Assembly (NCBI GenBank): GCA_003223295.1
Contig: QHYM01000270.1
Span: forward strand, 1-32,009
DNA from: Acidobacteriota bacterium
Lineage (GTDB): Bacteria; Acidobacteriota; Terriglobia; Acidiferrales; UBA7541
Reading direction: 5' to 3'
Length of the DNA: 32,009 nt
In this document: positions 10,216 to 28,806 of the stretch, piece by piece
How positions within the stretch are numbered: position 1 is the stretch's first letter
How the letters are laid out: every line of letters starts with the position of its first letter
Notes under the pieces: generated by a model
The model's database searches: none
What the model was told of the DNA's origin: nothing
Seen by the model: only the letters and a program-made list of their open reading frames with translations
Made by a program: the position numbers and the translations under genes

Positions 10216-11574
10216 TCAAGAGATTTGGCCTTTTTCTCCGGATGAAGATAGGTTCGCTTCGGGTGACAGACTGCGCTCGGGATCTACGAACAACCATGCC
10301 ACGGAACCGAGCACCGACAAACCCGCAGCCATAAGAAAAGACGTGGTCCAGCCGAATCGAGACGCAAGAAACGGAGTCAGTGAGGCGGTGAGCGCTCCCC
10401 CGAATTGATTGCCCATGTTCATGAAGCCGGAGACGGAGCCGGAGGAACCGGAAGCGATATCGGCGGTGACCGACCAGAACGAGCTTTGCGAAAGATAGAG
10501 TGCGCCCGCACCTCCGGCGAGCACCAGGCTGGCCAGCCCGGCGCTCTGCACTTGCGAACCAAACAAAAGGAAGACGGCGGTCAAGACCAGCGCGAAAACG
10601 GCGATGCCACAGCGTCCAGCGCGTTTTCCGTAGAGCTTCGTGACCTTGTCGCTGATCGCGCCGCCGACGGGGCTGCATGCGGCCATAGACAGAAAGAGAA
10701 GTGTCGTATAGGACGCACTAGCCTTCAGATTCAATCCACGCACTTTGGCCAGGTAAATGAAGAACCAGGTAAAGAAAATCCAGGCGATATAACCGAAACA
10801 GAAATAGGCGAGCGTAACGGCCCAAACATTCTTCGAGGAAAGGATATTCATCCACGGAATGCGGTCACCGGCTGCGACGCTACGGTGATTCGATTCTTCG
10901 GCCGTGCGGGAGTAGGCCGATGGCCTAACCGTTCGCCCGGCCTGAATGAATTTTAGTTCCGCTGGCGAGATTTTGGGATGCTCTTCGGGCGTATTCCGCG
11001 CAAAGAGATACCAAATTGCACCGACGGCCAGCCCCATGACCGCGCTCAGCCAAAACGACCATCGCCAACCATAGTGAACCATGATGTAGGTGATGAGGAA
11101 CGGCGTGGCACCCGCACCGATGCCCACGCCGGCAAAAATCAGACCGTTGGCTCTTCCCCGCTCCTGCGAGGGAATCCAACGCGAAACGAATTGGTTGGAG
11201 GCGGGGAACAACACCGCTTCTCCTGCTCCCAGAAGAAAGCGGGCCGCTGCAAGAACCAGAACCGCTGAGATTATCCCGGGTGGAACGGCGGCAATAAGAG
11301 AAGTAAAGATCCCCCACCACACCACGCCGACGGCGAGCACGCGCCGCGATCCGAGGCGGTCGGCCAGCCATCCTCCCACGGTTTGGAAAAATGCGTAGCC
11401 GAGCAAGAAGGCGCTGGTCAGCGAACCTAGCTGTACGTTGGTAAGGTGAAATTCTGTGGCAATGGAACTTCCGGCGATAGAAAGATTGATTCGGTCGAGG
11501 TATGCGACCGCGCTCAGAACAAATAGCCAAAGCACCAGGAACCAGCGCACGCGACTCTTCGCACCTTCAACCAT
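10216..11574 (-). CDS. MFS transporter, anion:cation symporter family (sugar-acid type)
   Basis: About 452 residues with 12 predicted membrane segments. YLDRINLS in helix 1 and GGWLADRLGSRR between helices 2 and 3 are typical of the ACS family, which includes D-galactonate, glucarate and hexuronate proton symporters. It probably imports an acidic product of the periplasmic enzymes encoded upstream. The start at 11574 has AGGGAG five bases upstream. It is last in the five-gene unit RraA, PQQ dehydrogenase, RidA, PLP enzyme, MFS; the 90-bp gap to the PLP gene has no clear terminator. The substrate cannot be read from the sequence. Confidence 0.9.
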   Translation of the reverse strand: MVEGAKSRVRWFLVLWLFVLSAVAYLDRINLSIAGSSIATEFHLTNVQLGSLTSAFLLGYAFFQTVGGWLADRLGSRRVLAVGVVWWGIFTSLIAAVPPGIISAVLVLAAARFLLGAGEAVLFPASNQFVSRWIPSQERGRANGLIFAGVGIGAGATPFLITYIMVHYGWRWSFWLSAVMGLAVGAIWYLFARNTPEEHPKISPAELKFIQAGRTVRPSAYSRTAEESNHRSVAAGDRIPWMNILSSKNVWAVTLAYFCFGYIAWIFFTWFFIYLAKVRGLNLKASASYTTLLFLSMAACSPVGGAISDKVTKLYGKRAGRCGIAVFALVLTAVFLLFGSQVQSAGLASLVLAGGAGALYLSQSSFWSVTADIASGSSGSVSGFMNMGNQFGGALTASLTPFLASRFGWTTSFLMAAGLSVLGSVAWLFVDPERSLSPEANLSSSGEKGQIS

Positions 11575-11664
11575 GCAGACTCCCTTGATACCTCCTGATA
11601 TTGGGCACGCGGTGGCTCCCGGAATGCAGTTTCATCAGAGACGCGAACGAAAGAGCTGATTCGC

Positions 11665-12924
11665 CTACGCAGTGTGTGCCTTTAGGAATTTCACCAATTC
11701 CTGGGCGATGACCTTTTCTTCCCCGGGCTTCAGCATGAAGGAATTCATGGACAAGGCTTCGCCATGCTCCCCCGACGAAAGAACGATGGACGGTTTTCCG
11801 CTGCGCAGGGCAGTCGTGACTTCGCGCGGCGTCAGCTTGATGCGGGTGGAATCCCACTTGATGTGCAGGTGGGGCACGTGGTTGGCGATTTCCGGGGTAG
11901 GGAAAGAAGTCGTCACCCCCGGAATTCTTGTAACCTGCGCGGAAACAAAATCCAGTCGTCGTTGCCATTCCTTGTTCAGCGCCTCGTGATCTTCCTTCAA
12001 ATAAGATTCGAGCGCCTTGACCATCCCGACGATTTCTTCCTTGCCCACTTTCTGGCTGCGCCCGAGTGTGTCTTCGTGAGGACTGTTGTTCAATAGTGCG
12101 TAGGCCACTAAATCTTTCTTTCCTATAAGCAACCCAGCGCATTGCGGCCCACGAATCGCTTTTCCCCCGCTGAACGCAATGAGGTCGTATCCCATGTTCG
12201 CGTAGTCCCAAAGGCGCGAGACAGGAGGTGTATCTGCGGCCGCATCATTAAATGCCGGGATATTGTTTTCATGGGCCAGCTTGACCCATTCCTGCACTTT
12301 GATCTGTCCCTCATTGTCGGCGAAGTTCGAGAAATGCATCATCGCTGTTTGTGGATTGATGGCTTTTTTCAAATCGTCGCGGGATTCTACGACCACGAGC
12401 TTTATTCCGGTAGCGCGCAACTGATGGTCAAATGGATTGCGATGCGATTTTTGGATGATGACTTCCGATTTCATCCCTGTTAAATCGGGCAACTGCTCGA
12501 TGAACTTCGGGTTGTCCCCTGTAAGGATGCCTGCAAGACCGGACTGCATTGCGGCAGCAGCACCACACGTGACGAGCGCGCTGTATCCCTCCGGCAGCTT
12601 GAGCATCTCAGCGATGCGCTGGCCAGCAGCGACTTCCAAATCAGGAATGCTGACAAAATGGCGCCCCGCCATCGCCATGACTGCTTCGACTTCCGGACGC
12701 ATCATGGAGCCGCCCAGAACAGTCATGGTTCCTTGGCCGTTGATGACGGTCGTCACGCCCAATTCTTCATAAACGTTTCCAGTTGCGCCGAAGCCCGTAA
12801 TAGGCCCAGCCTTGGCGCCAACAGTCGGATGGGCAAACGCCTTACGCCCTGTGAAAATCGTTCCCACCAGCGCGCCGAGTGTGCCCAAAAAAGTTCGGCG
12901 ATTCCAGTTATCTTTGAATACCAT
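11665..12924 (-). CDS. Tat-exported SelA/DgaE-like PLP-dependent enzyme (copy 1)
   Basis: Fold-type I PLP enzyme of about 419 residues, related to selenocysteine synthase SelA and D-glucosaminate-6-phosphate ammonia-lyase DgaE. The probable PLP Lys is Lys255 in SGGKAIRGPQ; Asp227 in NDAAAD may hold the pyridine nitrogen. The C-terminal domain is complete, with the helical stretch after KVGKEE present, unlike copy 2. The N-terminus NRRTFLGTLGALVGTIFTG is a Tat signal ending near AFA. This predicts a periplasmic enzyme exported folded with its cofactor, which is unusual for this family. It starts 4 bp after the RidA stop, with GGGGGCG upstream. By analogy it would eliminate ammonia from an amino acid or amino-sugar acid and release an enamine for RidA; the substrate is not known. 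Confidence 0.87.
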   Translation of the reverse strand: MVFKDNWNRRTFLGTLGALVGTIFTGRKAFAHPTVGAKAGPITGFGATGNVYEELGVTTVINGQGTMTVLGGSMMRPEVEAVMAMAGRHFVSIPDLEVAAGQRIAEMLKLPEGYSALVTCGAAAAMQSGLAGILTGDNPKFIEQLPDLTGMKSEVIIQKSHRNPFDHQLRATGIKLVVVESRDDLKKAINPQTAMMHFSNFADNEGQIKVQEWVKLAHENNIPAFNDAAADTPPVSRLWDYANMGYDLIAFSGGKAIRGPQCAGLLIGKKDLVAYALLNNSPHEDTLGRSQKVGKEEIVGMVKALESYLKEDHEALNKEWQRRLDFVSAQVTRIPGVTTSFPTPEIANHVPHLHIKWDSTRIKLTPREVTTALRSGKPSIVLSSGEHGEALSMNSFMLKPGEEKVIAQELVKFLKAHTA

Positions 12925-12928
12925 CGAT

Positions 12929-13456
12929 CTACGCCCCCTTCTTTACGTCGCGCACCACGGCAGCAATGCAGTTGATCTCCACGAGCGACTCGCCCGGTAA
13001 TCCAGCTACAGCCACGGTAGTCCGAGCGGGGCCGCCATTCGGAAAGTATGTCTTGAAAACCGAGTTCATGCCGTCGTAGTAGTCCAGCTTTGCGAGATAC
13101 ACGGTGAGTTGAAGAATGCTGTCCATGGTACCGCCGCCTGCTTCGACGACGGCCTTTACGCCGTCCATCACCATTTGAGTGTGCATTTCGATCGTCGGTG
13201 TTTTTCCGGCGTCCGATTTGTTGCCGCGCGAATGTGCGCCTTGCCCGGCGATGTAGATCAAGCCATTGTGAATAATAAGCGGCGTGATGAAACCCTTGCC
13301 GGCAGGTTTTCCATCGCCGTCGAGCTTCTGAATGGTGCCGGTACCCTGCGCGGCCGATGCCGGCGTTTCGCCTGTCATTCCCGCGAGGCCGAGGCCTGGC
13401 AAAAGCCCGGCCAGCCGAGCGGTAAAACCTCTTCTCGTGCTGCGATCGGTAAACAT
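12929..13456 (-). CDS. Tat-exported RidA (YjgF/YER057c) family protein
   Basis: RidA proteins hydrolyse reactive enamines/imines from PLP enzymes to keto acids and ammonia. About 175 residues; RidA domain from about residue 41. ATG 13456 is chosen for the strong AAGGAGG site (13465-13471) and because it places STRRGFTARLAGLLPGLGLAG, a Tat signal, at the N-terminus. The substrate-carboxylate Arg is kept (Arg145, GPART, equal to E. coli Arg105). The position of E. coli Glu120 is Asn162, so the reaction may differ from classical 2-aminoacrylate deamination. Directly upstream of the PLP gene (4-bp gap), which supports joint function in the periplasm. RidA proteins are normally cytoplasmic or organellar. 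Confidence 0.88.
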   Translation of the reverse strand: MFTDRSTRRGFTARLAGLLPGLGLAGMTGETPASAAQGTGTIQKLDGDGKPAGKGFITPLIIHNGLIYIAGQGAHSRGNKSDAGKTPTIEMHTQMVMDGVKAVVEAGGGTMDSILQLTVYLAKLDYYDGMNSVFKTYFPNGGPARTTVAVAGLPGESLVEINCIAAVVRDVKKGA

Positions 13457-13502
13457 TGCTGATTCCTCCTTCGAGTGATGGTGATTTGAAATCGTTCGTT
13501 CT

Positions 13503-15194
13503 TCAAGGCAACCCAAAACTAAAGACGTCGCTTCCCGCCGCGATGGCCACGTATTGTTTGCCTTTCACCGCGTAGCTCATGGGTGAAGCATGCATATTCT
13601 GGCCTGTATTGAAGTGCCACAGGGGCTTGCCCGTTTGCGCGTCAACGGCTTCAAAGGACTGGGCATCATCGCCGAAAAAGAGCAGCCCGCTGGCAGTGGT
13701 CATAACTCCACCCGAGGAATGCCCCTGGCCTGCTTGAGGATAGCGCCAGGCAGGTTTGTCGGATTCAAGACTGAAAGAGAGCAAACTTTTCTGGGCATGA
13801 TCCCCGGGACTGCCGCGAGCGCCTGTGGAATAGTATGTCTTTCCTTCGGAAAATTCCTGTGGCTTTAACAAAAACACATCGCAGTTTTCGCTCGCCAGGA
13901 AATAGAAAAGATGAGTCGAGGGATTGTAAGAAGGCGAATACCAGTTTGTGGCCCCGATGAATCCGGGACAGGTGCGCGTGCCCTCTGCAGTGGGTTGGAC
14001 GCCGGTTCGAATCGGACGACCCTGCGCATCAATGCCCTTCGCCCAATTGAGTTTTTCCACGAATGGAAAGGCGGAGAGAAATTTTCCACTAGTGCGGTCC
14101 AAAACGTAGAAAAACCCATTGCGATTGGCTTGGACAAGCAGCTTTCGCGGCTGCCCCCGATAGTTCGTGTCGATCAGGACGGGAGTCTCTGTCGCGTCGT
14201 AGTCATACAGGTCGTGCGGCGTAAATTGAAAATACCATTTGAGCTTTCCCGTATCCGGGTCCAAGGCCAGCACGCTGTCGGTGTAAAGATCGGCTCCCGG
14301 TCGCGGACCGCCATCAAAATCGGGAGCGGGATTGCTGGTGCACCAATAAATCGTATTCAGTTCGGGATCGTATGTGCCCGGCATCCAGGTAGTGCCGCCA
14401 CCGCGCTTGTAGAGTTCGCCGGGCCAGCTCTCGGAGCCAAACTCGCCGGGCCCGGGAATTGTCCAAAAGCGCCACACTTCTTTTCCCGTCTCCGCGTCGA
14501 AGGCGGCGAGGAATCCGCGGACGCCGTCGTCGCCGCCGGACGTTCCCACCAGCACTTTGTCTTTCACGACCAGCGGAGCGCTCGTTGCTCCGTAGTTTTT
14601 GTTTCCTTCAGCGTAAGGAACGTCCCACAGTAGGTGGCCCGAGCGTGCGTCCAGACAGAGCAGATGGGCGTTGTCCGTTTCCATGTAGAGGTGCGACCCG
14701 AGAATTCCAACGCCGCGGTTGTGATGTTGTGAGGCATCGTCGATCAGGCCTTCTGTGATGGGGCGCGAGTAATGCCAAATGAGGCGGCCGGTTTGCGCAT
14801 CCAGCGCAAATGCATCGTTTGCGGAAGTGATGAACATGATGCCGTCGAAAACTACCGGCGTGACTTCCATGCTGTTTGAATTGGACACGTGGAAAACCCA
14901 TTGGGCGCGGAGCTGTTCGACATTCTTTGGAGTGATCTGTTCAAGGTTGCTGAACCGGCGGCCAGTATAATCGCCATTATAGGAAAGCCAATTCGCGCCC
15001 ACTGGCTGCGCCGCGAGAGCTTCCGAAGTCACATGGATGGAAGTCGAAACGGAACTGTTCTCCGCGTCTTGCGTTTGTGCCCGCGTTTGGAGGGCAAGGA
15101 AACTGGCCAAAAGGGCTACTGTGGTGGCCAAAAATCTGCGGATCAGAGCGGGGAAACCCGCTTTCTCCACCGGCTCCATGAAAGTATTTGCCAT
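13503..15194 (-). CDS. PQQ-dependent dehydrogenase (quinoprotein), periplasmic, lanthanide-type metal site
   Basis: Eight-bladed propeller quinoprotein of about 563 residues with a Sec signal ending near TRAQ. It oxidises an alcohol or sugar and passes electrons to a cytochrome c. Repeats with the W-docking pattern (TGRLIW, TGKEVW, TGKLKW, TGKPLW) are clear. Metal/active-site region: Asn288 in SNP, catalytic Asp331 and a second Asp at +2 (Asp333, DYD). In methanol and ethanol dehydrogenases the extra Asp marks lanthanide use. The Glu ligand of MxaF (Glu177) is replaced by Asp222 in SGGDDG. There is no vicinal Cys pair. No fused heme domain; the divergent di-heme cytochrome gene (16220-17128) is the likely partner. 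87 bp after the RraA-like gene. Confidence 0.9.
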   Translation of the reverse strand: MANTFMEPVEKAGFPALIRRFLATTVALLASFLALQTRAQTQDAENSSVSTSIHVTSEALAAQPVGANWLSYNGDYTGRRFSNLEQITPKNVEQLRAQWVFHVSNSNSMEVTPVVFDGIMFITSANDAFALDAQTGRLIWHYSRPITEGLIDDASQHHNRGVGILGSHLYMETDNAHLLCLDARSGHLLWDVPYAEGNKNYGATSAPLVVKDKVLVGTSGGDDGVRGFLAAFDAETGKEVWRFWTIPGPGEFGSESWPGELYKRGGGTTWMPGTYDPELNTIYWCTSNPAPDFDGGPRPGADLYTDSVLALDPDTGKLKWYFQFTPHDLYDYDATETPVLIDTNYRGQPRKLLVQANRNGFFYVLDRTSGKFLSAFPFVEKLNWAKGIDAQGRPIRTGVQPTAEGTRTCPGFIGATNWYSPSYNPSTHLFYFLASENCDVFLLKPQEFSEGKTYYSTGARGSPGDHAQKSLLSFSLESDKPAWRYPQAGQGHSSGGVMTTASGLLFFGDDAQSFEAVDAQTGKPLWHFNTGQNMHASPMSYAVKGKQYVAIAAGSDVFSFGLP

Positions 15195-15281
15195 TTGTTG
15201 AGAGCCTCTATACTACGGCATGCTTCCAGGTTGCACTCCCAATTTTAGTATTTAAATCGAATCAAAATCTCCCACATCGTT

Positions 15282-16067
15282 CTAAAGGCGCCCAAACTTC
15301 TTTACCGCTTCCTGGATGGACTTGAGTTTTTCGATCCACGCATACATCGAGTGCTCTTTGAAATCCATCTCCTGTGCCAGCGCAAGGACTTGCGGCGCAC
15401 TCGAGCGAGGGACCACTACCACGCCATCAGCATCCGCGACGATGATGTCAGCAGGACTTACTTTGACCCCATCGCACACGACCGGAATGTTTGATCCCGC
15501 GAAGCGGTAGTGGCTTATCGAAGTGGAGGGTACGATGCCCAAGGCGTACACGGGGAATCCAATTTTTTGCAAATACGCTGTATCTCGCACTCCTCCGTCG
15601 ATCACCGCGCCAGAAAAATTGCGCGAGTACATCGCCGTGCCCATCAGGCCTCCCATGCCGGCGATGTCGGCGCCGTCCTCGACGACCATGACGTACACGG
15701 AATTTGGAGGGCCCTGGTCGATTGCTGCAAGCATCCCAGTGAGTGCGCCTGGGTCATTGTTGCTTTCTTTCTTCAATAGCACCGTAAGCGCAAATCCAGC
15801 AAACTTCGTCGGGAAAATGGGCCGCATCCGATGGGTCATGTACATCTTGCGTCCGCTGATTTGTTCGAGCGCATCAGATACGGAGGCCGCTTCGACATGC
15901 CGGAATCCTTCGAGCAGGGAAGCGTCGTCGCTCGGCTTCGCAGCTTCCTGGCTAGAGTTCGCGGAAGGATGCCAGGCCCATCCTGCAATTCCCGCTAGGA
16001 CAAGACTTACAGCTAGAACTCCTCCGCAGATAATGGCGCGACGGAAAAAGCCGGCGAATCTGTTCAT
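15282..16067 (-). CDS. Exported RraA-fold protein (HMG/CHA-type aldolase family)
   Basis: About 261 residues. The RraA fold from about residue 50 keeps the metal/keto-acid signature G-X20-R-D (Gly140, Arg161, Asp162) of 4-hydroxy-4-methyl-2-oxoglutarate aldolases. Active members cleave or decarboxylate 2-keto acids with Mg; RNase E-inhibitor members have lost this. The N-terminus AIICGGVLAVSLVLAGIAGWAW is a signal peptide or membrane anchor, so the protein faces the periplasm. That fits an aldolase acting on the keto acid from the PLP/RidA step, not an RNase regulator. Strong AAGGAGG at 16073-16079. First gene of the minus-strand unit, divergent from the cytochrome gene. Confidence 0.85.
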   Translation of the reverse strand: MNRFAGFFRRAIICGGVLAVSLVLAGIAGWAWHPSANSSQEAAKPSDDASLLEGFRHVEAASVSDALEQISGRKMYMTHRMRPIFPTKFAGFALTVLLKKESNNDPGALTGMLAAIDQGPPNSVYVMVVEDGADIAGMGGLMGTAMYSRNFSGAVIDGGVRDTAYLQKIGFPVYALGIVPSTSISHYRFAGSNIPVVCDGVKVSPADIIVADADGVVVVPRSSAPQVLALAQEMDFKEHSMYAWIEKLKSIQEAVKKFGRL

Positions 16068-16219
16068 GTAATCCTCCTTAAAGTCAGTGTGAAGCGCCGC
16101 CTCAACGAGATATCGTGCCGTTTCATTGGAAGCGGGATTTTTTGCAAAGCAAATGATACTTTTAACCTCTCAAAGTTGATAGGGAGCGCGACAAAATCGC
16201 TTCAACCGCCACCAGCCAA
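16068..16219. promoter_or_regulatory. Divergent promoter region between RraA-like and cytochrome c genes
   Basis: 152 bp between two oppositely directed units that seem to form one pathway. It is AT-richer than its surroundings and contains TTTGC-AAA-GCAAA (16141-16153). No clear -35/-10 pair can be assigned by eye. Confidence 0.45.
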
Positions 16220-17128
16220 ATGACTGACGTCCGTTCGCGAATCACGACTTGGAGCAAGGCAGGTCTTATTCTGCTTTCCTCCCGCCATTTTCTCTGCGCG
16301 GCCACTGCTTCAGCATTCTTTGCCGCCTGCGTGTTGGTGTTACAGGCCGGCGCCCAGAATACGAGATCCGCGGCCAGGAAAAATCCGGCGGGAGATTCTG
16401 CTGCTGAGGATGGCCGGAAAACGTTTGAATCCATTTGCGCCACATGCCATGGCTTGGATGGGCGCGGCGGCGAACGCGGCCCGGATCTGGTATCGCGTGC
16501 GGAAGTGGTGGCCAAGAGTGATGCCGAGCTCCAAGAAATTCTGAAGGTAGGGAAGACCGCGGCGGGGATGCCGTCGTTTGCAGGCTACAAAGCGGAGCGG
16601 GTGGCCTCGATTGTGGGCTATTTGCGGACGCTGCAGGGTGGGAACAAAGCAGCCCGGCTGCCAGGCAATCCGGTGCAAGGCAAGATGCTGTTTTTTGGTA
16701 AGGCGAAGTGCTCGGAATGTCACATGATAGGCGGGCGAGGCGGATTCTTCGGTCAGGACCTGACCAGGTATGCTGGGAAACGGGACGTGGATGGCATTCG
16801 TGCAGCCATCATAAATCCGAATAAAGACCTGGATCCACGCCGCGGACTGGTGACGGTTGCGCTCGCTGATTCGAATCGGCTTACTGGATTGGCGCGCAAC
16901 GAAGACAATTTTTCGCTTCAATTACAAACGCCAGACGGAACATTTCACTTGTTGAACAAGGCCGACATCCTGAGGCTGACCTACGACGGGAAGTCGGCAA
17001 TGCCAGCCGACTACGGCTCAACACTTTCAACGACTGAACTCAATGACTTGGTGAGTTTCCTACTCCGCACGGTGGACGCGGAAAAAGCAAGCAAGGCCAA
17101 GGAGGCCGAAGATGACGTCGATGAATAG
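16220..17128 (+). CDS. Di-heme cytochrome c, likely electron acceptor of the PQQ dehydrogenase
   Basis: About 302 residues, periplasmic. Signal segment about residues 14-46 (cleavage near QAGAQ). Heme 1: CATCH (73-77) with Met117 in GMPSF. Heme 2: CSECH (164-168) with Met261 in AMPADYG. The second half (about 154-286) resembles the heme-binding domain known from Pirellula/Verrucomicrobium-type proteins and the N-terminal domain of the fusion at 29975-32009. So the dehydrogenase and cytochrome here are split, while there they are fused. The ATG at 16220 lacks a good ribosome site, so the exact start is uncertain. The lactonase gene follows after 21 bp. Confidence 0.88.
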   Translation: MTDVRSRITTWSKAGLILLSSRHFLCAATASAFFAACVLVLQAGAQNTRSAARKNPAGDSAAEDGRKTFESICATCHGLDGRGGERGPDLVSRAEVVAKSDAELQEILKVGKTAAGMPSFAGYKAERVASIVGYLRTLQGGNKAARLPGNPVQGKMLFFGKAKCSECHMIGGRGGFFGQDLTRYAGKRDVDGIRAAIINPNKDLDPRRGLVTVALADSNRLTGLARNEDNFSLQLQTPDGTFHLLNKADILRLTYDGKSAMPADYGSTLSTTELNDLVSFLLRTVDAEKASKAKEAEDDVDE

Positions 17129-17149
17129 AAAAGAAACGCAGGGCAGAAG

Positions 17150-18115
17150 ATGAGGCGATACCCAGCCGTAGCGCTGTTGCTAGCGGTTTTGTTCGCTGCA
17201 GTCCTTGAGCTGCGGGCCCAGAAATCCAAACGTGAATTCCAATTGCATGCAGACTCGGAGGAATTTTGGACGTTGGTTGATCGAGACGCCAAACTTTCTA
17301 TGGTTGGCACCGGATTTGGATTCACGGAAGGGCCGGTGTGGGATCCGGAGGGCTTCGTTCATGTAAGCGATGAAGTTACGAACAAGATTTTTCGGCTTTA
17401 TGCTGACGGGCGAAAAGAAGAGCTGGTGTCTTTAGGTGACCCCGACGGGAATACCTACGACCGTCAACACCGATTGATTGATTGCGCCAGCGTGTTGCGC
17501 GCAATCATTCGGCTGGATCGCGATGGAAAGTACGAGATTCTTGCTGAACGATTTGAGGGGAAGAAATTCAATAGCCCGAACGACGTGGTGACCGGGCCGG
17601 ATGGCGCTCTGTATTTTACTGATCCCACGCTGGATCTGCCCGAAGGACAGAAACAGGAAATTACGTTTAAGGGCGTGTACCGGCTGGATCCTTCGGGAAA
17701 GGTCAGTCTGCTCACCAAGGAACTGTCGCAGCCGAACGGACTGGCTTTTTCTCCGGATGGCAAGAAATTCTATGTGGACGACAGCGAGCAACGAAACATC
17801 CGGGTTTTCGATTTTACGATGGACCACACGCTGGCGAACGGCAGAATGTTCGCAGAAGAGCCAGGCGGAAAAGGCGATGGAGTGCCGGACGGCATGAAGG
17901 TAGATTTGGCCGGAAATCTCTACGTAACCGGGCCAAAAGGGATCTGGATTTGGAATGCGTTGGGGCGGCACCTGGGAACAATTGAAATGCCTGAGCAGTC
18001 CGCGAATCTTGCGTGGGGCGATCCGGATTACGGGACTTTATACATCACCGCAACCACGTCCGTTTACAAGTTACGAACCAGAACGCACGGATTCGTCCCA
18101 TACCTAAGTCGTTAG
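17150..18115 (+). CDS. SMP-30/gluconolactonase family lactonase, exported
   Basis: Six-bladed propeller lactonase of about 321 residues that hydrolyses sugar lactones. Signal peptide YPAVALLLAVLFAAVLELRAQ. The divalent-metal ligands of the family are in place: Glu60 (TEGPVW), Asn144 (NSPNDV), Asn196 (QPNGLAFSPDG) and Asp247 (GVPDGMKVD). Co-transcribed with the cytochrome gene and divergent from the PQQ dehydrogenase unit. It would open the lactone that a PQQ sugar dehydrogenase forms in the periplasm. The stop lies 17 bp from the convergent stop of the triple-RidA gene. Confidence 0.9.
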   Translation: MRRYPAVALLLAVLFAAVLELRAQKSKREFQLHADSEEFWTLVDRDAKLSMVGTGFGFTEGPVWDPEGFVHVSDEVTNKIFRLYADGRKEELVSLGDPDGNTYDRQHRLIDCASVLRAIIRLDRDGKYEILAERFEGKKFNSPNDVVTGPDGALYFTDPTLDLPEGQKQEITFKGVYRLDPSGKVSLLTKELSQPNGLAFSPDGKKFYVDDSEQRNIRVFDFTMDHTLANGRMFAEEPGGKGDGVPDGMKVDLAGNLYVTGPKGIWIWNALGRHLGTIEMPEQSANLAWGDPDYGTLYITATTSVYKLRTRTHGFVPYLSR

Positions 18116-18132
18116 TCCGACGAGCGATCAGC

Positions 18133-19383
18133 TTACTGCAGGGGCTTTGCGTTTGAGTCCTTTCGATTACGAACGGCGATGAGCGACATCTGCTCCAGTG
18201 TCGGATAATGTACATCATCTTCGAGCTTGCGATTGCCGGGCCGGAGTTGCTGGACCGTGGTCTGCGCGGGCAGCGGGCCATTGAAATATTTTTTGTACAC
18301 GGCCGCGTACTGCGGACTTTCCGAAATGTCGTCGAAGTAGATCGTCGTCGAAACGACCTGATCAAAGTTCATGTCCGCTTCTTCCAGGTTGTCGAGCAGG
18401 TTGCGCATGGTTTGCCGGGTCTGATCGGTGGTCGAAGCCGCGTAAATACCGCCGTTAGGTCCAGGAATGAAACCGCTCTTTGCCGAACAGTATAATGTAT
18501 CGCCAGCGAAGACGCATGGACTGGCGGTTGGGCTGGGCGTCATGTTCTTCGGACGCACGGCTTTGCGGCGCGTCAGATCGCGGACCGCCACGCCGGTGTA
18601 AGCGATATGCGCGCCTTCAGGAAGGCTGGAGACCTCGATGGTAGCCCGAGCGGGGGTATTTCCGAATTCAAAGCGCGCCGCGTAGTGCTCGTTCATAATG
18701 CGCATCGGAATTTCGTTCGTGAGGTAGGGGTTCACGAAGACCATATTGGAGTTGCTGAGTCCTGCGGCTCGTAGGACCGCGCTTAAGCGGTCCAGCGCCA
18801 TGTCCACTTGAGCTATGGGACTCTGAGGCACGGCCCCGCTCACGGGATCCCTGCCGGGCATAGTCGAAACAAATAGGCGATCATGAGTCAGCATTCCTGC
18901 GGAGTAGGCCTTGCTCAAAGGCCAGTTGGGAACAGATACGGATTGCTTTCCCCTCAGATCGCGAACGGCGACTGCGGTAATTTGCAAAGAAGCCTCCGGA
19001 ACGCGAGCGACGCCGAGAACGCCGCGAGCTGGCGGCTCTTTGGGAAAATACGCAGCGAAGGCGTCGTTCAGTTCCGGGTACTGACTCGTGTCCTCAAGAT
19101 AGACCTGAACGTAAACGACGTGGTCCATCGTGAGTCCGGCAGCTTCGACCAGGCGCTTGACGTTGTCGAGGCACTGGCGCACCTGCTCGGGAAACTTGGT
19201 GGGGGTCGTTCCGTCTGCACGGTGAGGTCCTTGGGCGGAGATGTACAGGTAGTCTCCGGCATCGATGCTGGGCGAGCCCGGCACGGAGGAGGAAGGCGAG
19301 ACTGCTTGCGAGGAGGCCACACGCGGTTGGAGGAACGCGAAAGCCGCGAAGAGCAGCGCCGTGGAGCGAAACAAACGTATCAT
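18133..19383 (-). CDS. Exported protein with three RidA domains in one chain
   Basis: About 416 residues with a Sec-type signal (LFRSTALLFAAFAFLQPRVASSQA). Three consecutive RidA (YjgF) domains: about 33-143, 150-270 and 277-406. Domains 1 and 2 keep the substrate Arg (Arg120 in PPARG, Arg246 in TPARA); domain 3 has Gln374 instead (LPAQT). The Glu120 equivalent is Thr, Thr and Ser. RidA is normally a homotrimer with active sites between subunits, so this chain could fold as a pseudo-trimer with one degenerate unit (inference). Its start overlaps the stop of the second PLP gene by 4 bp (ATGA), indicating translational coupling. Confidence 0.88.
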   Translation of the reverse strand: MIRLFRSTALLFAAFAFLQPRVASSQAVSPSSSVPGSPSIDAGDYLYISAQGPHRADGTTPTKFPEQVRQCLDNVKRLVEAAGLTMDHVVYVQVYLEDTSQYPELNDAFAAYFPKEPPARGVLGVARVPEASLQITAVAVRDLRGKQSVSVPNWPLSKAYSAGMLTHDRLFVSTMPGRDPVSGAVPQSPIAQVDMALDRLSAVLRAAGLSNSNMVFVNPYLTNEIPMRIMNEHYAARFEFGNTPARATIEVSSLPEGAHIAYTGVAVRDLTRRKAVRPKNMTPSPTASPCVFAGDTLYCSAKSGFIPGPNGGIYAASTTDQTRQTMRNLLDNLEEADMNFDQVVSTTIYFDDISESPQYAAVYKKYFNGPLPAQTTVQQLRPGNRKLEDDVHYPTLEQMSLIAVRNRKDSNAKPLQ

Positions 19384-20570
19384 GCGGGCTTTCCCTGTCG
19401 CGCCGCGCTGAGGATGGTGCGCAAACGCCGCCCGACGATCATCTCTTCGCCCGGCTGAATGGTCATGGAAACCAGCTCGATGTGATTCTGTTTTTTTGGT
19501 TCTTTGGGATTCGGTTTTGGTTTGTCGGTTCCTTCCTGCACTGCCGGCACCATGCTGGGGTTGTCAATGCTGAGCACTTCGATGACCGGGTCGCCCTCGT
19601 GCAATTTCTTAGCGCATTCGGCGACGTTGAAACCCCACGCCTCCTGGTCCCAGGTGATTCGCAGCGTTGGATAGCGGTTGCCATCATCTGGAATGTAAAT
19701 TTCGGTGTGAGTGCCGATGACTTCTTCTTTCCCAACCTTCATCGGCCGGCAGACGGCGCCTTCGAAGGGGCACGAATTCCGAAGGGCGGCTTCGATCAGA
19801 TCCTTGCGACCTAGCAGCACGCCGCTGCATTGCGGTCCGCGCAACCCTTTGCCGCCAGAAAAAGTGTACAGATCGAGCTTCATTTTTGCGTAGAGCTTGA
19901 TGTTGTCGATCGGCGGAATACCGGCGGCGTCGTCAAGCAGCAACGGTACATTATAATCTTTGGCAATGGCCGCTTCCCGCGCGAGCTTATCGCCCAAATC
20001 CGTAGTGTAGATCATCGCGGTGTTGCCGGTGATGGCGCTCGCAATGTCGTCGGGCTTCTCAACCAGCACGAGCTTTGCACCGGCCAGCCGTATGGCATTG
20101 TCAAAAGCGCTGCGTCCACCAACCATGATGACTTCGTGTTTCAGGCCTGTAGTGTCGGGAAGCTGCCAGATTTTTTTGGGGTCACTCCCAGCCATGCAAG
20201 CGGCCGTGGCCGCGGCCATCGCGCCTGCCGCTCCCGAGGTGATTAGTCCCGATTCGGCACCCGTCAATTCCGCCAACCGCTCCCCCACGGCATGGTGAAG
20301 ATCCACCATGTTAACGAAATGCCGGCTGGCTTCGGCTTGCGCCTGCTGAACCTCGGGAAATTGCAGCGATCCACTGAGATAGGTCCATGTGCCCCGGCAG
20401 TTGATGACGGTCTTGACGCCCAGGCGGCTGTAGACATTTCCGCGCAGGTCTAATCCGAAGGCGGCCGCAGATTTCTCATAGAGGCCTTGAGCGGCGATCT
20501 GAGCCAACAGCGGGGAGGCCGCCAGCATTTTCATGAATCCGCGACGGTTGGCGTGTTGTGTTGCGAGCAT
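19380..20570 (-). CDS. Tat-exported SelA/DgaE-like PLP enzyme (copy 2) with an internal deletion
   Basis: About 396 residues, paralogue of the protein at 11665-12924. Tat signal NRRGFMKMLAASPLLAQIA. The PLP Lys is Lys241 in SGGKGLRGPQCSG; Asp213/214 in LLDDAAG. After KVGKEEVIGT (residue 287) the chain continues at once with HTEIYIPDDGNRYPTLRITWD, while copy 1 has 36 more residues here, forming helices before its PHLHIKWD. The frame is intact. Copy 2 also carries a Lys/Pro-rich insert (about residues 345-360) late in the C-terminal domain. The start at 20570 has a GGAGG site, 20 bp after the CBM9-like stop. Coupled by a 4-bp overlap to the triple-RidA gene, so the PLP/RidA pairing is seen twice in this window. 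The function of the shortened form is uncertain. Confidence 0.83.
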   Translation of the reverse strand: MLATQHANRRGFMKMLAASPLLAQIAAQGLYEKSAAAFGLDLRGNVYSRLGVKTVINCRGTWTYLSGSLQFPEVQQAQAEASRHFVNMVDLHHAVGERLAELTGAESGLITSGAAGAMAAATAACMAGSDPKKIWQLPDTTGLKHEVIMVGGRSAFDNAIRLAGAKLVLVEKPDDIASAITGNTAMIYTTDLGDKLAREAAIAKDYNVPLLLDDAAGIPPIDNIKLYAKMKLDLYTFSGGKGLRGPQCSGVLLGRKDLIEAALRNSCPFEGAVCRPMKVGKEEVIGTHTEIYIPDDGNRYPTLRITWDQEAWGFNVAECAKKLHEGDPVIEVLSIDNPSMVPAVQEGTDKPKPNPKEPKKQNHIELVSMTIQPGEEMIVGRRLRTILSAARQGKPA

Positions 20571-20590: not shown

Positions 20591-21406
20591 TTATTTCGCG
20601 AAAACCAAAGTTCCAAAATGTTCAGGCACGTGATTGGGGTCACGATTGACGACGCAAGTCGGCTGCCAGCACATGAAATGGCGCTCCGGATCGGCCCCAA
20701 GTCCGTCTATTCGATAAAGATTGGCGCGCCACTTGGTTCCGGCGCTTACCGGCTTTTCGCTGACTGAGCGCAGTGGCACGCGAGCCGCCGCGTACCACAC
20801 ATGATTTTTCTCATCGATACTTCCAAGACGCTGCCAGCCAGAATTCCAATTGGCGTCGAAAGAGTCTTTGTTGATGTTGATGGCCAGATCGACCCAATCG
20901 CCAGTAGGAGCGATCTCGAATTCACGATAGTGTTTGATATCGCTCCAATCGTCGCCGAGGAAAAATTCAACGACGTCACGGTCCCACAGCTTCAGGCGGT
21001 CCTTCGAATTGTCGGCGGGCAGCCAGAGATTCAATTCGGTGTATGGGCAAATAAACAGAAGGTACAAGTCGGAGTCGGTCCATAACGCGCGAACTTCCGT
21101 TTTGAGCTTGGGATAGTCGATTTGGTGCGTACAGTCTTTGACGATCCATGCAGATGACGCGTTAGCCCAGGTCTTGGAGTGTGGATCAATGTTCAACTGT
21201 GGCGCTTTCGAAACGTGTGGAATCGAAAGAGACGCCATCGGCGATGCAACCTCGCAGACCTTGCCGGCGGCACTGTTGTCCAGGGCTGCCTGCGCTGAAG
21301 CCGGCAGACCACGGCCAAGCGAAGGAGCGGCAAGTCGTGAGCCCGCCCAAACAACAAGCAAAGCAACTGCAAAGACCGCGAACAGAACTTTTTTCACCGG
21401 GAACAT
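20591..21406 (-). CDS. Carbohydrate-binding family 9-like (CBM9-like) exported protein
   Basis: About 271 residues. A signal or anchor helix (VLFAVFAVALLVVWAGSRLAA), then a DOMON/CBM9-like beta-sandwich with family features: TEVRALWTDSDLYLLFICPY, WDRDVVEFFLGDD, YREFEIAPTGDWVD, RANLYRIDG and a C-terminal PEHFGTLVFAK. Such proteins bind or recognise glycans outside the cytoplasm; no catalytic site is visible. The ATG lies 2 bp after the TPR stop without a strong ribosome site, so translation is probably coupled. Confidence 0.85.
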   Translation of the reverse strand: MFPVKKVLFAVFAVALLVVWAGSRLAAPSLGRGLPASAQAALDNSAAGKVCEVASPMASLSIPHVSKAPQLNIDPHSKTWANASSAWIVKDCTHQIDYPKLKTEVRALWTDSDLYLLFICPYTELNLWLPADNSKDRLKLWDRDVVEFFLGDDWSDIKHYREFEIAPTGDWVDLAININKDSFDANWNSGWQRLGSIDEKNHVWYAAARVPLRSVSEKPVSAGTKWRANLYRIDGLGADPERHFMCWQPTCVVNRDPNHVPEHFGTLVFAK

Positions 21407-21408
21407 TG

Positions 21409-23052
21409 CTAAGGACGCGGCGCGTTTCTGAGCTCTGGAGAAATCTCAGAAGCTCTCTCGAACTCAGCCCGCGACTCTGCCTCCTTTCCCAGTTGATGAA
21501 GAGCCAATGCAAGGTTGTAGTGCGCTTCAGCATAGAGCGGTTTGAGGCGCACTGCTTCCGCGAATTCGGACTGTGCCGCGTTCGCATCCCCACTCTGCAA
21601 CAAGACCAGGCCAAGATTGCTGTGAGCCTCGGCGAAATGCGGTTCGCGACGCAGCAATTCTCTGAAAACACTAGCAGCCCCGGCCAGGTCGTTGTTCTGG
21701 CTGAGTACCAGCCCCAACTGCACGCGTGCGTCAGTGTATTTGGGATCGAGGCTGATGGCCTCATTCAGTTCCCGCGCGGCCTCGTTCAATTGACTGGACT
21801 GCGCGAGCGCAAGGCCAAAGTTGTAATGTGCTTCAGGCAAGTCGGGATCGGACATCACCGCCCGCCGGAGTTCATCGAGCGCGCGTGCGCCATCGTTCTG
21901 GCGCCAATAGAGCAGTCCGAGGCTCGAGTGGGCCTGTGCATAGTCCGGTTTCAGCTCGAGCGATTTCTCGTAGGCCGCCAGGGCACGCGGAACGTCTCCC
22001 TTGCGCTCCCACGTTACTCCCAGATAGTAATGGCCGGTCGGCAGCTCGGGACTTTGCTCGACAGACTTCTGAAAGAGCGCCAGGGCATCGTCGAGCTTCT
22101 GCTGCTTCAGCGCCTCCACGCCCTGGAGGATAAGATATTTGGTTTGCGCCAGGCGGGCGCGGAACTCTCGCAGTGCGCTCACCTCATCCAGCTCCTTGTG
22201 GGCGGCGCCAGTCTCGCCCTGAGCACGCAACGCGATGCCTAGGTTGTAGTGCGCCTTTTCGAAATCAGGCTTTAACTCGATCGCCCGCCGGAACGCTGCG
22301 ATCGCGCCGGCGGTATCCCCACCGGATTTGAGCTCCATGCCCAGGTTATATTGCGCCTCCGGGTCCTTGGGATCGATTTCGACAGCTTCGCGAAACTGGG
22401 CAAGGGCGCCAGCGTGATTGCCCTGGCGGCGCAGTGTCACGCCCAGCAGCAAGTGCGCCGGTGCGAACCGCGGCCTAAGCCGGAGGGCACGGCGAAATTC
22501 CGCCGCAGCACTATCCAATTTGCCCAACTGTCCTTCGGTCATCCCCAGCTCGATATGCATCTCAGCCGTGGGCTTCGACTGGAGCGCCCGCCGTAACTCG
22601 CCCTCAGCTGCCACAGGATCGTTCTGCTGCACGTAAACTCGCGCCAGGAGGCGACGGGCCCCGGCGTTCGCGGGATCGAGGTCTATTGCCGTGCGCAGTT
22701 CCTTGAGCGCGGCGGCCCGATCGTTCAGATCGTACCAGGTCGCGCCTAACCCGTAATGTGCATCGGCCCACTTTGGTTTGAGCCGCAGCGCAGCTTCGAA
22801 CTCTTCAACCGCCTGCTTGGTGTCACCCTTGTATTTCAGCGTCAGCGCTAAATTGTAATGCGTGTCCGGGTCGTTGGGTTCGAGATCCAGAGCCTTGTGA
22901 TAACTCGCGATGGCTTGGTCCCACAATTTGCTGCGAGAGAATTCGATAGCTCGTTCGCGGTAGCTCTCGGCAGTCTGGGAAAAGGCTGTAGCGGAGAGCA
23001 ACTGGCCCAGAACGGCAAAGAACAATACTCGCTTGCAATCGGCGAAGATCAT
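21409..23052 (-). CDS. Periplasmic tetratricopeptide-repeat (TPR) protein
   Basis: About 547 residues. Signal peptide (VLFFAVLGQLLSATAFSQ), then about 15 TPR units in a row with the usual W/L-G-Y-A-F-A-P pattern (for example AHYNLALALHQLGKEAESRAEFERA). No other domain is seen. Probably a protein-interaction scaffold; the partner is not known. It is transcribed after the TonB receptor gene across a gap holding a very stable hairpin, and just before the CBM9-like gene. The regular repeat produces long meaningless open frames on the opposite strand. Confidence 0.9.
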   Translation of the reverse strand: MIFADCKRVLFFAVLGQLLSATAFSQTAESYRERAIEFSRSKLWDQAIASYHKALDLEPNDPDTHYNLALTLKYKGDTKQAVEEFEAALRLKPKWADAHYGLGATWYDLNDRAAALKELRTAIDLDPANAGARRLLARVYVQQNDPVAAEGELRRALQSKPTAEMHIELGMTEGQLGKLDSAAAEFRRALRLRPRFAPAHLLLGVTLRRQGNHAGALAQFREAVEIDPKDPEAQYNLGMELKSGGDTAGAIAAFRRAIELKPDFEKAHYNLGIALRAQGETGAAHKELDEVSALREFRARLAQTKYLILQGVEALKQQKLDDALALFQKSVEQSPELPTGHYYLGVTWERKGDVPRALAAYEKSLELKPDYAQAHSSLGLLYWRQNDGARALDELRRAVMSDPDLPEAHYNFGLALAQSSQLNEAARELNEAISLDPKYTDARVQLGLVLSQNNDLAGAASVFRELLRREPHFAEAHSNLGLVLLQSGDANAAQSEFAEAVRLKPLYAEAHYNLALALHQLGKEAESRAEFERASEISPELRNAPRP

Positions 23053-23175: not shown

Positions 23176-26100
23176 TTAAAAGTGGAATTTCGCGCTGATT
23201 TGGCCGATGCGCGGTTCTCGCGCGCTGGTCACAAGACCGAACTGGCTACCACAGTTCGGGTCGATGTCATTCGTGCAAGTACGGAAGCTGCCGCTTGGGT
23301 TTGTGAACTGCGCATGGTTGAAGATGTTGAAGAATTCCGCGCGAATTTCAAAGGCCAGGGCTTCCTTAATAACAGTGCGCTTCGAAAAGCCGAGGTCGGT
23401 ATTGTTGAGTCCAGGTCCGTGGAAAAACTGGCGATTCGAATTGCCGAATTGTCCCAAGGGACCGGAGGCAAAGGCATCTGGTAGGAAGAAAGTGTTTGCG
23501 CCATTGGGGCCGGATTTGCGCGGGTCTTGAATGACAACGTTGCCGACGCGGTCAGGCACATCCGTATTCCCACTCCCCGTTAGGGACCAGTCTCCGCTCT
23601 GGCGAATTCGGACAGGCAAACCACCGGAAAAACGAGTGATTCCATGGAGCGCCCATCCTTGAGTAAGGCGCTTCGGTGCGCTTTTGAAGGCCCGGTCGAA
23701 GGGAAGCGCCCAGATATAGCTGACGACGAAATTATGAGTCATGTCGAAGGCCGATAGCGAGCGGCTCAGCCGGTGATTCGCGAAGTTCACCCACTGGCCA
23801 AAGCCAGAGGAGTCGTCGATACCTTTTGAGAAGGTATACGCTGCAAGGAAGGTGAGGTCGGCGGCCTTGCGCTCCACCGTCACCTGGGCTGCGTTGTAAT
23901 TCGAGTTGGCAATATTGACGGTAAAGCTGTTGTTCGGGCCGAAGGCAGGTCCGAGTGTGTCCCGCGTCCCAATGACCTGACTCCCATTAGGTAGCGTGTA
24001 AGTGGTCTGCTCACCATTACGTCCGCAAGTGGGCTTAGCGCCCATTGCGTTTAGCTGGGCACAAAGAGCGGGATTACCCGGATTGGCGTCGTACTGCGAA
24101 ATCAATTTGTGGCCCTGCGTTCCGACGTAAGCCAATTTCAAGACGGTCGACTTCGAAATCTCACGCTCGAAGGAAAGATTGTAGTGTTCGGCGTATGGCA
24201 TTCTGTTGTGAATGTCATAACCCGGAGAGTACGATATGGGCAAATAAATCGAATAATCCAAGGTCGCGTTGGCGGGGTCACCTGGAATTGGGAATGTAAA
24301 TGGGAAGCGCGCACCCTGCGAGCTTCCGTCAACGCGCGTCTGGAACGGCAATTCCAAAGTGACAGGGATTTCCGGTTGCCAATACAAGCCAAACGGGGCG
24401 TCACCTACTTCGTAGAACAAGTTCAAGTCCTCAATCGAGGTGTAATAGATGCCGAAAGAGGCGCGGATACTGGACTTGCCAGGACCGCCAAAGACCTTGC
24501 CCAGTGTCCCTTCGCTAAAACCGGGCGAATAAGCAAGGCCGACGCGAGGAGCGAAATTGTTGTAGTGCGTTGGAGCGAGCGTGCTCGGAATACTGGGATC
24601 TCCAGGAACAACCCAACCGAGCGGCGCGGTCGGGAATTGAGTCGATTGCAAGCCGGGCACGATGGTCTCGATTTTGCCTTGGGTGTCATACCACGGCATG
24701 CTGACATCCCAGCGCAGACCCAGATTGAGCGTCAGGTGCGGCTTCACCTTGTAGGTGTCTTGCGCGTATGCGCCCCCATAACGCGTGCGCGAATCCAGAA
24801 ACTGCTGACTGCACTGGTTATAGCCGGAAGACGCGCCCAGTAGGAAGTCGGCGATGTCGTTTCCCGTTTCAGTCCCGTCAAACGTAAAGTCTCCGTTGGG
24901 CGCGCAAGTGTTGCGCTCATTGATTTGCAGATACCGGAACTCGCCACCAAATTTCAGCGTGTGAGAACCATGTACCTTGGAAAATCCGTCGGAAACGTGC
25001 CAAGTGTTATTGGGTTGAAACGTCGTCAGCGTATTGACGCCGATCGAGAAGTTGTTGAAATATTCCGGTGGTACAGTCTCCGGAAACCCCACGGGGCCCG
25101 ACGGATTGATGCCGAGCGTGCCTACGCCGGTAACAAAACCGAGGTCGGAGAGTTTAGCGAAGCTGGACTTGGGCTTGTCAGTAGTAGTAGCGGTGCGAAA
25201 GAAGCTCAAGCGGAACTGGTTCACTGTTGCCGAGCCGAGCATCTTGTTGTTGCTCATGACAAACTGCTGGGTGTGAGAGGGTGTTTCGCTGGAAAACCCG
25301 GGTACGCTGGCATTCAAGGCGTTTACCACATTCGAGCCATCCCAATAGTAGTAGAACGACCAGTTGCCCGTCTTCTGGTTATTGAAGTCGACGCGCTGGC
25401 CAACTTTGTTGTCGCCAGCGGTATTCCTTTGGCTGGCATCGGCAAAGATTCCGGCAACGGGGTCTATATTCCCCAATGGAATATAGGGCAGTAGCTTCGT
25501 CGCTCGAAGGTCGAAAGCGCCCTGGGGAATTACGCCGCCGGGAAAAACACAGCCAGTAACTGGATCGGTATTGGCGCAGCCCGGAAACGAGTAAGGCTCA
25601 TCGGCAACGACCGTCTGGCCGGTTAGTGGATTCAAGCGACTCGTCAGGGTCTGCTCCCAATTCAACGCACAGGTGGCACCTGCCGAGCATGGGGCACTCT
25701 GAACCACAAATGGCTGACCCGTATCGGAGTCCACAAAGGCACTGGTACCGAATTTGCCGTCGCGTTGGTCTTGCGTGGGCAGTTGTACAAGACCTGTGCT
25801 GGCTCCTTTGACCTGGCGAGTACCCTGATAGTCGGTGAACCAGAAGACCTTGTTTTTCCAGAACGGCCCGCCCACTGCATAGCCGAACTGATTGCGCCGA
25901 AGTTCCGCTTTGGTGGGATCAAAGAATCCCCGGGCGTCGAATTTGTCGTTCCGCAGAAACTCGAAGACGGTGCCGTGGATTCCATTGGTACCCGACTTGG
26001 TAATCGCATTCATGACCGCGCCGCTGAATTTTCCGTACTCCGCGTCAAAGCTGTTGGTGATGAGACGAAACTCTTCCACCGAATCAAGATTGGGGACTAG

Positions 26101-28661: not shown

Positions 28662-28806
28662 CAAAAGCAGAGCGGAATCGAACCCGGGAAGACGGAAAAC
28701 GCAACAAGCCCGAAACCTATGCGGGCAATTTCCACTCGCGAGGCGTGTCGTAGTTCGACTTCAGAAAATAAGGTAATGTCAGATGGCCCAATCATGGAGG
28801 TTGGCC

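Follow-up and report, generated by a model that had tools for sequence, protein, structure and literature searches.

What route is encoded by a gene cluster in which two candidate pyridoxal 5'-phosphate (PLP) lyases, each with a predicted export signal and each paired with a RidA gene, lie among genes for a quinoprotein, a lactonase, and a sugar-acid carrier? The cluster is found at positions 10216–20570 of a 32,009-nucleotide stretch of DNA from an Acidobacteriota bacterium. This stretch, referred to here as the window, is one entire contig (QHYM01000270.1, C197) of a 6.03 Mb genome whose closest named relatives are acidobacteria. It is considered probable that the cluster encodes a periplasmic route in which an unphosphorylated, glucosamine-like 2-amino sugar would be converted to a nitrogen-free 2-keto-3-deoxy sugar acid and then imported. 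The evidence consists of the observed gene content, conserved synteny, export motifs, catalytic residues, and a linkage to a kinase and an aldolase. The cluster and its conservation are well supported, as is its sugar-acid destination. The pathway may be of a known type relocated to the periplasm, and an amino sugar may be its substrate.

The gene set named by a first-pass annotation of this region is present in full. All of its open reading frames (ORFs) are intact, and the family assignments are backed by Pfam and NCBIfam models. The nine genes are as follows.

10216–11574, minus strand: major facilitator superfamily (MFS) carrier of the anion:cation symporter (galactonate/sugar-acid) type; Pfam MFS_1 239 bits, TIGR00893 222 bits
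11665–12924, minus strand: PLP1, predicted DgaE/SelA-like PLP lyase with a twin-arginine translocation (Tat) signal; Pfam SelA 39.7 bits, TIGR01437 183.7 bits
12929–13456, minus strand: RidA1, single-domain RidA with a Tat signal; PF01042 70.7 bits
13503–15194, minus strand: quinoprotein of the pyrroloquinoline quinone (PQQ) alcohol/sugar dehydrogenase family, predicted exported; TIGR03075 490 bits, TIGR04528 547 bits
15282–16067, minus strand: RraA-like protein with the fold of 4-hydroxy-4-methyl-2-oxoglutarate (HMG) aldolase and an N-terminal anchor or signal; PF03737 124 bits, best PDB match 3noj
16220–17128, plus strand: c-type cytochrome, predicted exported, with a CBB3-III domain and a TIGR02603 heme domain (Pfam/NCBIfam)
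17150–18115, plus strand: SMP-30/gluconolactonase, predicted exported; PF08450 160 bits, best PDB matches 3e5z and 3dr2
18133–19383, minus strand: RidA3, three-domain RidA of the 3x-RidA type, predicted exported; three PF01042 stretches
19380–20570, minus strand: PLP2, second predicted DgaE-like lyase with a Tat signal; Pfam SelA 26.5 bits, TIGR01437 129.2 bits

The PLP1 and RidA1 genes are 4 bp apart, and the PLP2 and RidA3 genes share a 4-bp overlap. The cytochrome and SMP-30 genes are divergent from the genes running from the carrier to RraA.

The set was also expected to occur together in other genomes, and it does. A scan of GTDB species genomes was used, limited to the best 80 of 183 relatives; of the 79 distinct loci that it yielded, 77 have acidobacterial titles. 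A gene was placed in the PLP1 clade if its best reference match was PLP1, with at least 57% identity and at least 300 amino acids, and genes were de-duplicated on their last 200 residues. This gave 65 PLP1-clade genes from 72 of the 79 loci (L075–L146) and from 18 loci of further relatives, the window being excluded. The core partners accompany 33 to 47 of the 65 genes: RidA1 (47), the quinoprotein (46), the cytochrome (46), the carrier (44), RraA (44), and SMP-30 (33). Other neighbors are an IclR regulator (23), a TonB-type receptor (20), a mutarotase-like gene (17), a 2-keto-3-deoxygluconate (KDG) kinase (14), and PLP2 (12). When only the 38 loci whose flanks reach at least 7 kb upstream and 3.5 kb downstream are considered, the corresponding counts are RidA1 30, quinoprotein 32, cytochrome 34, carrier 28, RraA 29, SMP-30 23, IclR 13, TonB-type receptor 13, mutarotase-like 10, KDG kinase 9, and PLP2 10.

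Two controls were scored at the same identity thresholds, and every one of these neighbor families was absent from all 20 random stretches and from all 25 paralogue loci. The random control was composed of 20-kb stretches picked arbitrarily in six genomes of the genus, on contigs that mostly carry the cluster elsewhere. The paralogue control was composed of loci of other PLP paralogues. It includes L145, which is below threshold, and L147–L153, and it omits L064 and L067, which carry PLP2, and L070, L072, and L073, which have no PLP gene. Several paralogue loci do hold a more distant RidA at 30–39% identity, below the thresholds.

Gene order is conserved as well. The gene directly upstream of PLP1 is RidA1 in 44 of 58 loci, and in 41 of 59 relatives the carrier follows PLP1 on the same strand within 1.5 kb. 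Counting paralogues and matches with E up to 1e-30, 32 genomes of a 101-genome sample have PLP1-like genes. A quick tree of 55 rows has a branch with support of 97 that separates all 40 acidobacterial-type rows from the DgaE, rhizobial-type, and haloarchaeal rows, and PLP1 and PLP2 form separate clades with support of 100 each. One locus (L054, G004:C261) lacks a PLP1 gene in the cluster but retains the PLP2 module together with the carrier, RidA1, quinoprotein, RraA, cytochrome, and SMP-30 genes. Part of the cluster is carried by Acidobacteriaceae bacterium KBS 96 (L100) and by Granulicella tundricola (L184). Two records titled Betaproteobacteria and Arcobacter (L083 and L152) hold acidobacterial-type loci and are probably mislabeled or mixed bins. 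A cupin protein with weak similarity to ureidoglycine aminohydrolase models (L090 1813–2685 and similar) is present in seven relatives and adjoins PLP2 in some.

The export signals proposed by the first-pass annotation are conserved as motifs. RRx[FL] is found ahead of the catalytic domain in all 63 PLP1-clade proteins with an N-terminus (the other two of the 65 are cut off). The same motif is present in all 15 assessable PLP2 proteins and, among the RidA1 relatives, in 45 of the 46 that could be assessed. A hydrophobic stretch lies at the N-terminus of the quinoprotein, RraA, cytochrome, SMP-30, and RidA3, and TatC is encoded in the same genome. Among 168 de-duplicated homologues plus DgaE, RRx[FLM] occurs near the start in 136 of 151 acidobacterial-type rows and in 2 of the 18 others. 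By elimination these two are L190 and L199, whose scores are taken as artefacts because the haloarchaeal frames were read from far upstream of the annotated start. From these signals, the PLP lyases and RidA proteins are predicted to be exported.

The view of PLP1 as a DgaE was not upheld. DgaE of Salmonella is the nearest solved protein (7lc0/7lce, E 8e-33), and the lysine of the SGGK motif, K255, is kept in PLP1; the PLP lysine is present in 168 of 168 homologue rows. Against the DgaE family model, with a cut-off of 600 bits, PLP1 scores 141.1 and PLP2 scores 113.8. Both are also below the 385.3-bit cut-off of the DgaE-like subfamily model TIGR01437, and they fall short of every NCBIfam PLP-enzyme model matched while passing Pfam SelA. 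According to the DgaE report, the substrate phosphate lies near R301, R332, and R346, His162 is near O6, and His163 is the proton donor (PMC9529869). The three arginines align with H352, S383, and F396 of PLP1 and with T, L, and M in PLP2. The full arginine triplet is present in only 2 of 168 homologues, both beside a 2-dehydro-3-deoxyphosphogluconate (KDGP) aldolase and genes related to the phosphotransferase system (PTS). The stretch aligned with His162-His163 contains no histidine (FSNFADNE in PLP1, TTDLGD in PLP2). Because the phosphate arginines and both active-site histidines are missing, PLP1 is judged by alignment not to be a DgaE. An unphosphorylated 2-amino-sugar acid would fit as its substrate; such a substrate is the expectation outside the cytoplasm and agrees with the loss of the phosphate arginines.

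The H163A mutant of DgaE releases an enamine, and the authors name RidA as breaking down such enamines (PMC9529869). A rule that enzymes lacking His163 have a RidA partner was considered and rejected, since the link is only partial across the 168 homologues. PLP1 and PLP2 lack His163 and have a RidA, and the classical DgaE records (L192 and L193) have His163 and no linked RidA. Against the rule, six homologues have His-His, and five of them are not classical DgaE: two from Rhizobium and one each from Phyllobacterium, Qingshengfaniella, and Caballeronia. Each of these five has a RidA within 1 kb.

The catalytic arginine of the RidA subfamily lies in a PAR motif. In RidA1 this arginine, R146, is present in 52 of 52 relatives. 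Domains 1 and 2 of the window RidA3 keep it, and domain 3 has Gln. Among 12 rows, domain 3 has Gln or Glu in 9 and Arg in 2, with one not matched by the pattern. This pattern suggests that RidA3 is an asymmetric, partly inactive fused trimer. An AlphaFold2 model of RidA3 shows three RidA-like domains in one chain, with a predicted local distance difference test score (pLDDT) of 81 and a predicted template modeling score (pTM) of 0.82; its top PDB matches are chorismatases, followed by single RidA chains. A fused RidA was considered as a novelty and dropped, as 3x-RidA proteins were described in 2015 (PMC4433059). These likewise have three RidA domains per chain and are presumed to be covalent trimers. 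RidA3 differs from them in its export signal, its gene overlap with a PLP lyase, and a domain 3 mostly without the RidA arginine.

The quinoprotein scores 490.3 bits on TIGR03075 (PQQ alcohol dehydrogenase), above the 480.05 cut-off, and 546.8 bits on TIGR04528 (acido-empty-quinoprotein group A), below the 650 cut-off. PQQ alcohol dehydrogenases contact metal and PQQ through a Glu, an Asn, a catalytic Asp, and a Cys-Cys pair. In the quinoprotein family, D222, N288, D331, D333, H157, and R160 are invariant in 49 of 49 relatives, and D331 and D333 form a DxD, which we take to be the lanthanide-type arrangement. Sorbose and glucose dehydrogenases are among the 26 structures that match it. A PQQ-free, "empty" quinoprotein, as suggested by the NCBIfam name, was set aside, because PqqC and PqqE are encoded above cut-off in the same genome; one carrier genome has no PqqC match.

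SMP-30 proteins bind metal through Glu, Asn, and Asp. Here E60 is found in 31 of 32 relatives (one gap), and N196 and D247 in 32 of 32; both best PDB matches are gluconolactonases. An R-D motif is typical of RraA-fold aldolases acting on HMG or 4-carboxy-4-hydroxy-2-oxoadipate (CHA), and R161-D162 is present in 46 of 46 relatives of the RraA-like protein. Its best PDB match is an aldolase, and all NCBIfam aldolase models that it matches fall below cut-off. The lactonase, RidA1, and RraA families keep their catalytic residues intact, and the quinoprotein keeps most of them. The best NCBIfam model for the carrier is TIGR00893 (D-galactonate type), at a score under the 395-bit cut-off. Many relatives also have a gene for a second RraA-family protein, of about 300 amino acids and with a signal-like start, located between PLP1 and the carrier but on the other strand (for example, L093 11314–12225, L098 8499–9425, and L117 1477–2382).

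The fate of the product is indicated by genes next to the carrier. A PfkB-type KDG kinase is found directly after the carrier in 12 of the 14 loci that have it. The best PDB match of one copy (L037) is a 2-keto-3-deoxygluconate kinase (2afb, E 2e-56); NCBIfam KDG-kinase models match the kinase below cut-off. Downstream of the kinase, 11 of the 14 loci have a 2-keto-3-deoxy-6-phosphogluconate (KDPG)/KHG aldolase gene, and one copy (L084) scores 199 bits on TIGR01182, over the cut-off. Of the three others, L104 and L117 end near the kinase, and the next ORF of L089 is unidentified. In the window's own genome, the kinase (71% over residues 2–285 of 363) and the aldolase (50%) are side by side on contig C153. 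Within the genus, the kinase at 70% identity or more is present in 17 of 17 PLP1 carriers versus 10 of 19 non-carriers (Fisher p 0.0012, counted by hand, kinship not controlled).

The mutarotase-like gene has weak matches to DUF4380/TTE1925. A NagB-like gene (glucosamine-6-phosphate deaminase family, below cut-offs) is present in 10 PLP1 loci and in none of the control or paralogue loci. Single lineages add a GH31 gene (L036, with a homologue in L037) and a polysaccharide deacetylase (L051). The lactonase and the KDG kinase, KDPG aldolase, mutarotase-like, and NagB-like neighbors argue for a sugar-acid route with a KDG-like product, and this part of the first-pass annotation is supported. A view of PLP1 as DgaE is not supported, and a periplasmic DgaF role for RraA is unproven: RraA is kept in 11 of the 14 kinase loci, the other three being contig-end fragments, so the two genes do not simply replace each other. 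RraA probably does more than stand in for DgaF, or does something else, and cleavage of the keto acid after import is more likely.

The locus continues beyond position 20570, where three further genes accompany PLP2-RidA3 in several relatives.

20591–21406, minus strand: CBM9-like protein, predicted exported, which accompanies PLP2; PF16011 23.7 bits (cut-off 25, just missed) and synteny
21409–23052, minus strand: tetratricopeptide repeat (TPR) protein, predicted exported; synteny
23176–26754, minus strand: TonB-receptor-type outer-membrane protein with a carboxypeptidase-regulatory domain; PF25183 607 bits, PF13620 70 bits, and synteny

An aldo/keto reductase (27653–28639, plus strand) and an S58 (DmpA-type) peptidase (28783–29919, plus strand) adjoin the cluster, both with a double-arginine (Tat-like) N-terminus. 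A second quinoprotein (29975–31996, minus strand), fused behind a cytochrome c domain and with D-W-D at the active site, extends almost to the contig end. The left part of the window resembles an exopolysaccharide cluster, with ORFs identified by eye, and is separate from the PLP/RidA cluster.

The proposed route would proceed as follows. The TonB-receptor-type protein, a probable uptake channel, would admit the substrate. The quinoprotein would oxidize C1 and pass electrons to the cytochrome, its probable acceptor, and SMP-30 would open the resulting lactone. The Tat-exported PLP lyase would then take water from the 2-amino-aldonate and free an enamine or imine, which exported RidA would hydrolyze to ammonia and KDG (or an epimer). 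The MFS carrier, as the predicted importer, would bring the keto-deoxy acid into the cytoplasm, where KDG kinase and KDPG aldolase would yield pyruvate and glyceraldehyde-3-phosphate. PLP2-RidA3 would serve as a second, parallel lyase-RidA pair, and the RraA-like protein could cleave part of the keto acid by a retro-aldol reaction. We infer the substrate, reaction, and location at each step, and the order of exported events is the most economical reading.

Parts of this route resemble known systems. In the ong pathway, a PLP deaminase turns glucosaminate (GlcN1A) into KDG in the cytoplasm, and kdgK and a RidA-family gene, OngD, are essential; the role of OngD is given as unknown (PMC9537276). 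The ong cluster, which acts on oxidized chitin in Pseudoalteromonas prydzensis, and the window system have in common TonB receptors, an inner-membrane carrier, PLP deamination toward KDG (predicted here), a RidA-family gene, and KdgK (PMC9537276). As in ong, a RidA gene and a KDG kinase go with the deaminase: the RidA is adjacent, and the kinase is in 14 of 65 loci and elsewhere in the window's own genome. The differences are that ong deamination is cytoplasmic, that C1 is oxidized by a lytic polysaccharide monooxygenase (LPMO) and not a quinoprotein, that the carrier imports the N-acetylated acid and not a keto acid, and that OngC is a fold type III PLP deaminase, whereas PLP1 matches SelA/DgaE (PMC9537276). 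No LPMO or N-acetylglucosaminate (GlcNAc1A) deacetylase was found among the window genes scanned; the rest of the genome was not searched for them.

PLP1 is like DgaE in its enzyme family by sequence, its PLP lysine, and the presumed loss of water and then ammonia to give a keto-deoxy acid for KDPG aldolase (PMC9529869). DgaE acts after PTS uptake on a phosphorylated substrate, with R301, R332, and R346 near the phosphate and His163 as proton donor, whereas PLP1 lacks these residues and has an export signal. A glucosaminate route proposed for Natrarchaeobius (PMC12343721) and haloarchaeal plasmid clusters are like the window in having a DgaE-like enzyme beside a Rid/RutC-family gene; the substrate of the Natrarchaeobius lyase is thought to be phosphorylated (PMC12343721). 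Some haloarchaeal clusters add a glucose dehydrogenase, an IclR regulator, a deacetylase, or a lactonase. A Halosolutus plasmid stretch has a PIG-L deacetylase, IclR, a DgaE-like enzyme, Rid, glucose 1-dehydrogenase, and a lactonase, and Halorussus has a deacetylase, a DgaE-like enzyme, glucose dehydrogenase, and Rid. No Tat signal was seen in the haloarchaeal lyases, and glucose 1-dehydrogenase takes the place of the quinoprotein. A Granulicella plasmid stretch, in which no quinoprotein is annotated, carries RraA, a PLP enzyme, RidA, a lactonase, and a BBE-domain protein. BBE-domain proteins are a family of FAD sugar oxidases.

Several observations weigh against the proposed periplasmic route. 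For 14 of 58 PLP1 genes, the position directly upstream is not occupied by a RidA gene. The kinase is present in only 14 of 65 loci (13 of 45 with at least 3.5 kb downstream), and RraA persists where kinase and aldolase are present. The window encodes no deacetylase or hexosaminidase, so an amino sugar is a possible substrate only. In the quinoprotein, a region with an invariant His157 takes the place of the common Cys-Cys pair, and Asp222 that of the metal-binding Glu; the solved structures nearest to it are of alcohol dehydrogenases. Within the genus, PqqC shows no significant association with the cluster (present in 15 of 17 carriers and in 12 of 19 others, p 0.13). It has no match in one 97%-complete carrier (G019) and only a split match in another (G018). 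The active site of PLP1 was judged by sequence alignment because its AlphaFold2 model is poor (pLDDT 46), and two alignments place different residues opposite His162-His163. His197, just before FSNFADNE and nearly invariant in a 12-row alignment, might replace the function of His162-His163.

In a doubtful alternative, free hydroxy-amino acids (D-serine, D-threonine, or peptide-derived analogues) would be the substrates of the exported PLP lyases and RidA, the quinoprotein would oxidize a small alcohol or aldehyde, and the cluster would serve amino-acid scavenging. The neighboring S58 peptidase is consistent with this, as are an S15 peptidase gene in two relatives, a third PLP paralogue that adjoins an amidohydrolase in the same genome, and the alcohol dehydrogenases closest in structure to the quinoprotein. 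OngC also accepts D-serine and D-threonine (PMC9537276). Amino-acid scavenging, however, has no evident use for the KDG kinase and KDPG aldolase, the lactonase, or the mutarotase-like and NagB-like genes, and the carrier is closest to a galactonate transporter model.

It is unlikely that cleavage is completed in the periplasm, with RraA splitting the keto-deoxy acid into pyruvate and an aldehyde such as glyceraldehyde, the quinoprotein oxidizing the aldehyde, and the carrier importing small acids. The invariant R-D motif of RraA, its HMG/CHA-type nearest structure, and the alcohol dehydrogenases near the quinoprotein are in keeping with this, and the RraA gene often adjoins the quinoprotein gene or sits one or two genes away. 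Such cleavage would leave SMP-30 and the mutarotase-like gene without a role and make the linked kinase and aldolase redundant, and RraA is kept in most of the kinase loci.

Some other PLP chemistry (racemase or transferase) on an unrelated exported substrate, with a regulatory or niche-related association to sugar-acid genes, would accord with the sub-threshold NCBIfam scores beside a Pfam SelA match and with the missing His162 and His163, but is very unlikely given the tight RidA pairing in two separate window gene pairs, which argues for an enamine-releasing lyase, and the Rid genes near homologues of several haloarchaea, rhizobia, and relatives (none is annotated near homologues in three other stretches).

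With the periplasmic amino-sugar route preferred, a wider reading can be put forward tentatively. In Acidobacteriota, the entire deamination half of amino-sugar catabolism may have been shifted outside the cytoplasm: Tat would export folded, PLP-loaded lyases and their partner RidA proteins, the periplasm would be the site where the reactive enamine and ammonia are formed and dealt with, and the cell would import nothing but a nitrogen-free keto acid. The lyases would be one acidobacterial lineage spread into several paralogues, and the quinoprotein a lanthanide-type (DxD) amino-sugar dehydrogenase in which His157 replaces Cys-Cys. Studies of enamine-releasing PLP chemistry normally concern the cytoplasm, in which RidA shields other PLP enzymes. 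Among the listed matches from open PMC papers, compared by title and the opening of the abstract, none describes an exported DgaE-like lyase with a RidA. If true, this reading would mean that enamine-releasing PLP chemistry can serve as a periplasmic catabolic step, and it would give a testable role to the unexplained OngD, the RidA of the ong pathway. It would also suggest how soil acidobacteria, which are abundant and hard to grow, may use amino sugars, from chitin or cell walls for example, without importing them.

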